Assembly (NCBI RefSeq): GCF_040214835.1
Contig: NZ_CP157874.1
Span: 4,862,501-4,926,500 of the forward strand
Length of the DNA stretch: 64,000 nucleotides
Reading direction: 5' to 3'
Source: Pseudomonas asiatica
Lineage (GTDB): Bacteria > Pseudomonadota > Gammaproteobacteria > Pseudomonadales > Pseudomonadaceae
Position 1 is the stretch's first letter. Each line of letters opens with the position of its first letter. This document shows, one piece after another, positions 40,466 to 48,914 of the stretch. Below the pieces are notes generated by a model, which had not been told where the DNA came from, did not search any database, and saw nothing but the letters and a program-made list of their open reading frames with translations. The position numbers were made by a program, and so were the translations under genes.

Positions 40466-41632
40466 ATGAATACCGCCGTGAACGTCAACGTCGTGCATGA
40501 GTCCGAAGCCCAGCGCCAGCATGCCCGGGTACGCATCCCCGCCAAGCTGCGGTTCCTCGACCCTCAGCGCCAGGCCCACGATGTGAAGGTCGACGACCTC
40601 TCCGCCGGTGGCCTGAGCTTCCACACCAAGCAACCACTGTCGGTTGGCGACGTGCTCCGCGGGCGGCTGCAGTTCACGGTCGACAACCTCGGCCTGTCGA
40701 TGGACATCGAGTTCCAGGTGCGCTCCTACAACCCGGGCAGTGGCCGTACCGGCGCCCAGTTCCAGAACCTCGAGCCCCGCGATATCGCCACGCTGCGCCA
40801 CATCATCACCTCGCACCTGTCGGGTGAGCTGATCACTGCCGGCGATGTGCTCAGCACCTTGCAGCGCGACAACTTCACCAAGGCGCGCAAGCAGAAGGAC
40901 GGCGGTGCCGGCCTGAGCGCCTTCGGCCGCCTCAAGGCGGTTACCGTCACCCTCGGCGTGTTCGTGGTCGGTGTCGCCGCCTTCGGTTTCATCGCCAAGT
41001 CGCTGTACGGCATGTACTTCGTCAGCCATGCCGAAGCCGGCGTGGTCGCGGTACCCACCACCAACGTCACCATGCCGCGCGACGGCACCGTGAACAGCCT
41101 GGTCGAAAGCGGTGGGCAGATCGCCAAGGGCGCACCACTGGCCAGCTTCACCACCAGCATGCTGGACATGCTCAAGGGCAACCTGGAAGACGCGCAGCTG
41201 GAGCCGGCGAAGATCGAGGAACTGTTCGGCAAGCAACTGTCCGGCACCCTCACCAGCCCGTGTGATTGCGTGGTTGCCCGCCAGCTCGTGGACAACGGCC
41301 AGTACGCCGCCAAGGGCCAGCCGATCTTCCAGCTGATCCCGCGCACCACCAACCCGATGATCGAGGCGCGCTTCACCTACCGCCAGTTCGACGAGGTCAA
41401 GCCAGGTACCCGGGTCAACTTCCAGGTAGCCGGCGAAGACGAAGTACGCACCGGCCAGATCGTCAGCAGCGCCAGCCTCAACAGCGAAGACCTGGCCGCC
41501 GACATCCGCGTGCAGATCAAGCCCGACAGCGCCCTGCCCGCCGAACTCGCCGGTCGCCCGGCTTCGGTCAACAGCGACCGTGGCCCATCGCTGAACTGGC
41601 TGATCGACAAAGCCATGGCCCGTGGGCTGTAA
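40466..41632 (+). CDS. alg44: Alginate co-polymerase / c-di-GMP receptor Alg44
   Basis: Alg44 binds cyclic di-GMP through a cytoplasmic PilZ domain and activates Alg8. The 388-residue protein has the PilZ motif with Arg17 and Arg21 (RQHAR) and Asp44, Ser46 (DDLSAGG), at the same positions as in P. aeruginosa. It then has one membrane helix (about 150-172) and a periplasmic membrane-fusion-like domain (about 190-385). All c-di-GMP ligands are intact, so the post-translational switch should work. Confidence 0.97.
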   Translation: MNTAVNVNVVHESEAQRQHARVRIPAKLRFLDPQRQAHDVKVDDLSAGGLSFHTKQPLSVGDVLRGRLQFTVDNLGLSMDIEFQVRSYNPGSGRTGAQFQNLEPRDIATLRHIITSHLSGELITAGDVLSTLQRDNFTKARKQKDGGAGLSAFGRLKAVTVTLGVFVVGVAAFGFIAKSLYGMYFVSHAEAGVVAVPTTNVTMPRDGTVNSLVESGGQIAKGAPLASFTTSMLDMLKGNLEDAQLEPAKIEELFGKQLSGTLTSPCDCVVARQLVDNGQYAAKGQPIFQLIPRTTNPMIEARFTYRQFDEVKPGTRVNFQVAGEDEVRTGQIVSSASLNSEDLAADIRVQIKPDSALPAELAGRPASVNSDRGPSLNWLIDKAMARGL

Positions 41633-41644
41633 GAGGACAAGCCT

Positions 41645-43177
41645 ATGACTAGCAGACAACCCGATACCTGTGGGAGCTGGCTTGCCGGCGATCGAGTGCG
41701 CAGCACTCGCCCAGCAGATGTATCGCCTGCACTGGCCAATCGCCGGCAAGCCAGCTCCCACAGGGTGCGTGTGAACCTTGGTCTGTGTGGCCTGGCCATG
41801 GCCATCGCCCTGGCCGGCTGTGCGGGCCTGCCCGACCAGCGCCTGGCCAACGAAGCCATGAAGCGCGGTGACACGGCACTGGCCGAGCGCAACTACAAGG
41901 CGCTGGCCGACCTGGGCTACAGCGAAGCGCAAGTGGGCCTGGCCGACATCAAGGTCGCCACCCGCGATCCGGCGAAAATCAAGGAAGCCGAGGCCACCTA
42001 CCGTGCCGCGGCCGCCATCTCGCCGCGTGCCCAGGCACGCCTTGGTCGCCTGCTGGTGGCCAAGCCCGACAGCACCCAGGCCGAGCGCGAAGAAGCCGAA
42101 ACCCTGCTCAAGCAAGCCGCCAAGCAGGGCGAAAGCAACACCCTGATCCCGCTGGCGATGCTCTACCTGAGCTACCCGCAGAGCTTCCCCAAGGTCAACG
42201 CCCAGCAGCAGATCGACCAGTGGCGCGCCGCCGGCAACCCGGAAGCGGGCCTGGCCCAGGTGCTGCTGTACCGCACCCAGGGCACCTACGACCAGCACCT
42301 GGGCGAAGTGGAGAAAATCTGCAAGGCCGCGCTGAACACCACCGACATCTGCTACGTCGAACTGGCCACCGTGTACCAGAAGCGCGGCCAGGCGGACCAG
42401 CAGGCTGCCCTGCTCGGCCAGCTCAAGGCTGCCTACGCCCGCGGCGCAGTACCGGCCACCCGGCTCGACAGCGTTGCCCGGGTCCTGGCTGACCGCAGCC
42501 TCGGCCAGACCGACGAGAAAACCGCCAAGGACCTGCTCGAGCAGGTAGCCCCGGCCAACCCGGCGTCCTGGGTCAGCCTGGCGCAACTGATGTACGACTT
42601 CCCCGAGCTGGGCGATACCGACCAGCTGATGGCCTACATCGACAAGGGCCGCGAAGCCGAACAGCCACGCGCCGAACTGTTGCTGGGCCGCCTGTACTAC
42701 GAAGGCAAGACCGTGCCTGCGGACGCGGCCAAAGCCGAACAACACCTGCAGGCTGCCGCCGACGCCGGCGAAGTCAGCGCCCATTACTACCTGGGCCAGC
42801 TGTACCGCCGCGGCTACCTGGGCAACGTCGAGCCACAAAAGGCCGTCGACCACCTGCTGGCCGCCGCCCGTGGTGGGCAGAACAGCGCCGACTATGCCCT
42901 GGCCCAGCTGTTCAGCGAAGGCCACGGCATTCGCCCGCAACCGGGCAACGCCTGGGTATTCGCCCAGCTGGCCCAGGCCAACCCGTCGCCGCAGTCCGCT
43001 GAATTGCTGCAGCAACTCGACCAGCAACTTACGCCTGACCAGCGCAGCCAGGCCCAGCAACTGCTGGCACAAGAAAAGCAGGCGCGCGGCAGCATGGCGC
43101 AAGGTGCCAACAGCACCCTGGCCATCGAAGCCCTGCAAGACGACGAAAAAGAAGTAACCGGTGAGGACTCGCTATGA
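41645..43177 (+). CDS. algK: Alginate outer-membrane lipoprotein AlgK with REP-derived N-terminal extension
   Basis: AlgK is the TPR/Sel1-repeat lipoprotein scaffold that places AlgE and binds the periplasmic alginate complex. The 510-residue frame starts at ATG 41645 with an AGAGGA site, 13 bp after alg44. The lipobox LAGC (Cys59) is preceded by an unusually long stretch. Codons about 8-40 lie in a perfect REP inverted repeat (41667-41764) that is translated through without a stop. The hydrophobic signal begins [19 protein letters not shown], and GTG codons at 41765 or 41771 could be the alternative start. The body has many Sel1-like repeats such as [20 protein letters not shown]. Confidence 0.92.
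41667..41764. repeat. REP inverted repeat inside the algK 5' coding region
   Basis: A perfect 26-bp inverted repeat starting CCTGTGGGAGCTGGCTTGCC (arms 41667-41692 and 41739-41764) spans a 46-bp loop that includes the small hairpin CGAGTGCGCAGCACTCG. It is a REP variant different from classes A and B elsewhere in the window. It lies between the algK start codon and the signal-peptide hydrophobic core. Confidence 0.92.
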
Positions 43178-48824: not shown

Positions 48825-48914
48825 ACCTGTGGGAGCGGGCATGCCCGCGAAGAAGGCACCGCGGTGCATGGCAAGGGCTTCGCCCTTGTTCGCGGGCATG
48901 CCCGCTCCCACAGG
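48825..48914. repeat. REP pair inside the alginate operon (algL-algI gap)
   Basis: Inverted copies of 'TGTGGGAGCGGGCATGCCCG' are followed by a further GC-rich hairpin (CCCCCAC...GTGGGGG, 48926-48947). It splits the otherwise compact operon. Confidence 0.9.

Follow-up and report, generated by a model that had tools for sequence, protein, structure and literature searches.

Here we describe a REPIN, a doublet of inverted REP sequences, that lies inside the reading frame of algK in a 64,000-nt stretch of Pseudomonas asiatica DNA (contig NZ_CP157874.1, positions 4,862,501 to 4,926,500; hereafter the window), together with its counterparts across the genus. Comparison of the junction between alg44 and algK at 195 Pseudomonas loci makes it highly probable that coding REPINs find a permissive, frame-filtered site in the n-region of the AlgK signal peptide, where they are inserted, swapped and lost while the residues that they encode are discarded.

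The algK reading frame runs on the forward strand from an ATG at 41645–41647 to position 43177, encodes 510 residues and has no internal stop. The match of its product to NF038194, the model for AlgK, reaches 799.8 bits (cut-off 700), which identifies it as AlgK. The upstream frame (40466–41632, forward strand, from the open reading frame list; stop TAA at 41630–41632) is presumably alg44, a name that we assign from the gene order of the alginate operon; it gave no match to an NCBIfam model above cut-off. A Shine–Dalgarno (SD)-like GAGGA (41633–41637) adjoins the alg44 stop, and the algK ATG, placed by the open reading frame list and by comparison of junctions, lies 5′ of the REPIN. The first-pass annotation had described a REP doublet with perfect 26-bp arms and a 46-bp loop after this ATG, and the repeat search agrees: two 26-nt arms (41667–41692 and 41739–41764), 100% complementary, enclose a 46-nt loop (41693–41738) within which the repeat search and RNA folding place a small inner hairpin (GAGTGC/GCACTC). 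The REPIN (41667–41764) begins 22 nt 3′ of the ATG, and its 98 nt amount to about 33 codons in the frame of the lipobox cysteine, Cys59. The left arm, on the forward strand and head-out, is translated as ..TCGSWLAGD.., and the right arm, on the reverse strand, reads ..RRQASSHR on the forward strand and places basic residues ahead of the hydrophobic core. Two in-frame GTG codons, at 41765 and 41771 (41765–41773), are candidate later starts; the remainder of the leader (41774–41821), with hydrophobic core and lipobox assigned by eye, ends at Cys59 (41819–41821).

The mature AlgK coding region (41819–43177) is delimited by the NF038194 match and by two solved AlgK chains, 7ula_B and 3e4b_A, which match from residue 59/60. 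Both chains start at the cysteine or later, which is not proof of cleavage because the P. putida construct was made without the signal sequence (PMC9734138, cited from an excerpt). In the same excerpt, AlgK of strain KT2440 without its signal sequence is numbered 33–484, which implies a leader longer than the 23 residues of short alleles.

By its anatomy the algK doublet is a REPIN. It consists of two inverted REPs with a short spacer, and each arm carries a GT[AG]G head followed by a palindromic core (TGTGGGAGCTGGCTTGCCGGCGA is present in both). The REP core pattern is also of high copy, with 350 matches in the 5.85-Mb genome compared with 0 for a reversed-pattern control, so the algK repeat is not a product of chance. 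The genome encodes two RAYT-family proteins (PF01797 matches above cut-off in frames of 161 and 159 aa, L138 and L139); the gene at L138 is flanked by TTTACCC-type REPs and that at L139 by none of the type searched. The doublet departs from the family in location, lying within a coding frame rather than being extragenic, but an extragenic position is a habit of the family and not part of its anatomy. As an in-frame insert within a conserved protein gene, it also answers to the description of protein-coding palindromes of the RPE kind. Within the window, 24 REPs occur between 5475 and 62378 (at most 2 mismatches); the only head-out pairs are the one in algK and one at 48828–48912, and the remaining pairs are head-in. 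A search of a plasmid collection gave no match to 41400–42300.

AlgK loci were drawn from three sets: 57 relatives of the genome, which yielded 30 loci; genomes of named species, from which the best 80 of 115 loci were used; and 298 genomes across the genus, of which 272 matched at E ≤ 1e-60, with 87 loci among the matches listed. The junction, defined as the sequence between the alg44 stop and the lipobox cysteine, was obtained for 109 of the first 110 loci and for 86 of the 87 genus-wide loci. The resulting 195 loci comprise 162 distinct junction sequences, which are not 162 species, as some records represent one genome. The sample is skewed to near relatives (best 80 of 115; best genus-wide matches listed), and the sequences are related, so that all counts below are of non-independent trials. 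REP-only reading frames were counted for a strict set of 89 alleles, smaller than the full set of REP alleles; a looser call gave 116 alleles, and a loose REP pattern miscalls L015 as REP.

A recognised REP is present in 110 of the 162 distinct junctions, with 46 junctions being short and 6 long without a REP match. The figure of 110 is a lower bound, because the last class holds L161 and L181, which carry another palindrome, and L063 and L137, which carry a TTTACCC-type REP. The REPs occur in both arrangements (head-out, +−, or head-in, −+), and the first of them is read in any of the three frames, as CGSWLAGD (the class of the window), PVGAGLPA or LWELACQR. When the 80 loci of named species (about 592 kb) were scanned at up to 2 mismatches, 92 of 104 REPs fell in the junctions (12,287 nt; 50 loci), and none in mature algK and the downstream sequence (347,688 nt). 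The other 12, at 8 loci, lie about 3 kb upstream, by position near the algD–alg8 boundary; these upstream REPs, placed by their distance from the algK cysteine, are of the TGTAGGAGCTGCCGAAGGCTGCGA type and occur in L092, L093, L095, L100, L102, L104, L109 and L110.

Several junctions bear on the gain and loss of such elements. L161 and L181 carry in the algK leader a palindrome resembling another REP family (TGTAGCCGCTGCCGCAGGCTGCG.. in L181); their junctions are 117 and 126 nt longer, both multiples of three, than that of the related short allele L171, with similar flanks. In L190 (G155, C20:273640-274240) a REP pair is nested within a REP of the algK leader, giving a 219-nt junction that stays in frame, and the nested pair is likely a second, recent insertion. 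Two short alleles, L049 and L054, retain a remnant of the right arm and by eye are in-frame deletions. The 340-nt junction of L029 contains a different long element (inverted ends GGTCTGTTGA../..TCAACAGACC) that follows the alg44 stop and precedes the algK SD. In contrast to the REPINs, this element is apparently not translated, the start lying 3′ of it. A near-identical short leader is shared by L014, L016, L018 and L195–L197; the separate branches of L014, L016 and L018 on the tree suggest that short alleles are exchanged too.

The algK REPIN is very probably translated. An SD-like motif occurs within the alg44 stop codon plus the next 17 nt in 150 of the 162 junctions, and an in-frame ATG or GTG within 18 nt of that stop, open through to the cysteine, in 161 (the exception being L029). 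Across the strict alleles, frame 0 of the REP segment is free of stops in 89/89, compared with 55/89 for frame +1 and 35/89 for frame +2. Openness of the whole leader in frames +1 and +2 (0 and 27 of 116) was discarded as a measure, since ATGA and GTGA themselves put a stop in frame +1, and the REP-only count was used in its place. A protein search with residues 1–58 found one cluster named AlgK (505 aa, 26 members) whose start is a shorter in-frame translated REPIN; this reflects the choice of a gene caller, being annotation and not evidence of translation. These counts bear out the earlier proposals that the REPIN sits in the translated 5′ end of algK and that it lengthens the signal peptide, the leader having 58 residues compared with about 23 in short alleles.

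The encoded residues appear to be free. Among 52 alleles that form eight groups without gaps, variable sites of the REPIN region are spread over the three codon positions as 60/48/55, and pairwise single-codon differences, summed over the groups, comprise 322 synonymous and 796 non-synonymous changes, a count inflated on the non-synonymous side by swapping of REP types, which contributes part of the variation. Over the first 75–90 nt of mature AlgK at the same loci, the figures are 20/13/104 and 970 synonymous to 24 non-synonymous. Even variation over codon positions together with a conserved frame indicates that the residues are unconstrained and the frame is kept. We therefore rejected a selected function of the encoded peptide on these counts, although the L096 group runs contrary (76 synonymous to 36 non-synonymous) and two other groups are near even (7 to 8 and 15 to 14). 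An untranslated stretch would also be expected to give 60/48/55, and the case for translation is made solely by the frame and start-codon evidence. Signal peptides need positive charge, and residues −28 to −13 from the cysteine are net positive in 111 of the 116 loosely called REP alleles.

The alleles have probably been gained, lost and exchanged more than once. On a quick tree of alg44 and mature AlgK (105 rows, junction excluded), the label long (≥120 nt) or short requires 20 changes, with at least 15 of them forced by starred branches; shuffled labels require 27.8 on average, so the label is partly inherited as well. The window differs from the short alleles L032, L033 and L035 over 41633–41800, and its adjacent flanks are 95–100% identical to theirs over 41501–41632 and 96–100% over 41823–42000. 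Leaving aside L031, which is nearly identical, the closest sequences to the REPIN part are L039, L090 and L053 (88–91%), and the end of the tract resembles L034. This pattern suggests that a tract of about 170 nt was acquired by exchange. Label changes would then mix insertion, deletion and exchange, and 20 changes are not 20 insertions. The allele of the window also looks received rather than locally transposed, because its doublet measures 94 nt compared with 85 nt for the other 17 head-out doublets sampled from its own genome, and because its loop motif has no second exact match there (13 places at up to 2 mismatches, algK included).

The type of REP found in algK mostly follows the population resident in the host. 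Among 30 hand-picked genomes in which the algK REP was typed, that type is the commonest of three resident types in 23; label shuffles, which ignore relatedness, gave a mean of 9.8, and 0 of 20000 reached 23. Agreement varies by class (TGG..CCA 6/12, SGG 7/8, GAG 10/10), and 7 of the 30 genomes disagree. Across 18 head-out REPINs sampled from the genome of the window (algK included), 48 of 54 forward frames are stop-free, so an insertion is seldom fatal when its length fits.

Other 5′-end REPs in this genome may be translated as well. In the window and 40 stretches around listed matches (not a random draw), 23 of 122 REPs are continuous with a coding-like downstream frame. A coding score on either side of each REP flagged 0 of 123 in the own-genome sample and is uninformative for 5′ ends, as it also missed algK, where the left side spans only 36 nt. 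For the left algK REP, a start with an SD is present on the 5′ side but not on the 3′ side. The REP at L209 shows the same pattern, but there the SD is the REP's own GGGAGC. On one strand at L231, SD-like starts lie on both sides of the REP, and six other REPs (two at L216, one at L222, one at L225 and two at L231) have one strand without an SD on either side.

Several other readings of the junction were weighed against a coding, mobile REPIN. The REPIN could be a 5′ untranslated control hairpin, with AlgK starting at GTG 41765 or 41771. Di Nocera et al. (2013, PMC3733652, from excerpts) judged most REPs in the 5′ part of P. putida open reading frames to be non-coding, with the true starts downstream, and proposed for them a role in post-transcriptional control. 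A later ATG or GTG is indeed present in 57 of the 89 strict alleles and, as two GTGs, in the allele of the window, the REPIN shows no codon-position bias, and its hairpin is strong. A later start with an SD-like motif exists in only 12 of the 89, however, and in 28 the stretch between the REP and a point 11 residues short of the cysteine offers no ATG, GTG or TTG (a count that leaves starts inside the REPIN uncovered). In L077 and L026 every in-frame ATG, GTG or TTG precedes the REP. With the upstream-start frame conserved in all junctions but one, and the REP segments preferentially open in that frame, we judge an untranslated REPIN very improbable. The earlier suggestion that the REPIN forces the use of one of the GTGs is disfavoured on the same grounds (upstream SD, conserved frame and alleles devoid of a later start), although sequence alone is insufficient against a later start in the allele of the window and in the others that have a later ATG or GTG. 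A single ancestral algK REPIN, passed on by descent and altered through gene conversion by resident REPs without further insertion, would account for the many alleles with common flanks inside a clade, and agreement with the resident type is expected of conversion too. Yet one insertion could hardly have given a first REP that occurs in three reading frames and in either orientation, the other palindrome of L161 and L181 beside the short L171, and the nested pair of L190; this history is improbable. The same observations, together with the 20 changes on the tree, argue that REPINs entered more than once. The comparison of orthologues that the first-pass annotation had called for thus upheld neither of the outcomes it foresaw, a strain-specific insertion or an old extension unrelated to REPs, and instead returned several REP insertions, exchanges and losses. 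A sequencing or assembly artefact, for which we found no support, has a negligible probability: the 186-nt junction class of the window recurs in L031, L111 and L112, and other REP alleles occur in many assemblies, which disposes of the possibility of an error at the site.

Selection could also have kept the alleles polymorphic for their effect on expression, the hairpin or the long n-region slowing the synthesis or export of AlgK. RNA from 41600 to 41830 folds at −125.6 kcal/mol, with a z-score of −6.14 against shuffles, compared with −0.19 for the short relative L032, in which the folded stretch of 154 nt spans the equivalent junction; the hairpin of the window is thus very stable. Differing alleles among near relatives with 95–100% identical flanks, and their recurrence over the tree, also fit this reading. 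In none of the 116 loosely called alleles is the first REP base closer than 15 nt to the start codon (range 15–70 nt). This distance is outside most of the footprint of an initiating ribosome, and initiation may be spared. Conservation of a perfect long stem is not strict, though, because at least 6 of 24 arm positions differ in 16 of 101 two-REP alleles (some of these being core offsets), and the arms are identical in only 51. The unconstrained amino acids, a REP type that mostly tracks the resident population and the scars left by in-frame deletions (L049, L054) likewise speak against an adaptive tuner, which we find rather unlikely. It is possible that the hairpin tunes AlgK synthesis. The broader proposal of a genus-wide docking site, an exchangeable REPIN-built n-region kept polymorphic because AlgK output, and with it the secretion of alginate, responds to the hairpin or the long leader, is doubtful on present comparisons.

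For the coding REPIN that we favour, the events may be pictured as follows. A RAYT-type miniature mobile doublet (mobilisation by RAYT being putative) sits in the n-region of the AlgK lipoprotein signal peptide. Translation would begin at the SD and ATG just 3′ of the alg44 stop, as the comparison strongly implies, and the ribosome would read across the REPIN, whose frames are nearly all stop-free and of which in-frame versions alone would survive. The product would be the long leader, with the right arm supplying basic residues beside the hydrophobic core. By analogy with lipoprotein biology, Sec export and signal peptidase II would then remove the REPIN residues at Cys59 and leave mature AlgK unchanged; because of this removal with the signal peptide, the site would accept any insert that keeps the frame. 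REPINs, in many cases those abundant in the host, would have entered algK more than once, been swapped between lineages, nested and been deleted in frame, the allele of the window being probably received by exchange and not copied from a resident element. Visible selection would act on the frame and the absence of stops, not on the amino-acid sequence.

Intragenic REPs are already known, and recurrence at one signal peptide is the new part. The papers compared here are cited from excerpts. Bertels and Rainey (2011, PMC3116915) found that, among 1,067 of the commonest 16-mers in SBW25, 14 overlap with a gene. The algK element shares with the Pseudomonas REPINs of that study the inverted doublet, the GT[AG]G head, the high copy number and the presence of RAYT-family genes in the genome; those REPINs are described as almost wholly extragenic, whereas that of algK lies in a coding frame, at one site, in many species. 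Intragenic REPs of the GTAG/CGTC families (PMC3733652) also lie in frame within known proteins, and those in recB of X. campestris and X. oryzae occupy about one site, which resembles the recurrence at algK. The 5′-end REPs in that account are mostly non-coding, in contrast to algK, where start-codon and frame evidence favours translation and the element recurs across many species. RPEs are palindromic repeats of about 105–150 bp found in frame within protein genes (Ogata et al. 2000, as reviewed in PMC2229807 and PMC10969869), and the likeness to the algK REPIN, drawn by description, is that of a palindromic repeat in frame inside a protein gene. They differ in that RPEs occupy many genes and form part of an active guanylate kinase, whereas algK REPINs enter one gene repeatedly and encode a segment that maturation should remove. 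A further parallel is the Yersinia YPAL/RU-2 repeat at YPO1552 (PMC2229807), where a mobile repeat forms part of a predicted signal peptide, as at algK; that case concerns one putative protein in two close species, whereas algK has a hydrophobic core of its own and receives the n-region from the repeat. A literature search found no paper that pairs a REPIN with algK; subscription papers and supplements (for example, Additional file 3 of PMC3733652) lay outside the search, so this is not proof of absence from print.

REPs are named as extragenic, and in P. putida those at gene 5′ ends have been regarded as mostly untranslated; the algK alleles indicate that REPINs can be captured as coding sequence. 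Such capture would fall in a segment that processing should remove, and the frame alone would filter it. The natural series of alleles and their short counterparts would allow the effect of a REPIN on mRNA, translation and export to be measured, and the algK leader offers a place in which to catch REPIN insertion, exchange and loss.
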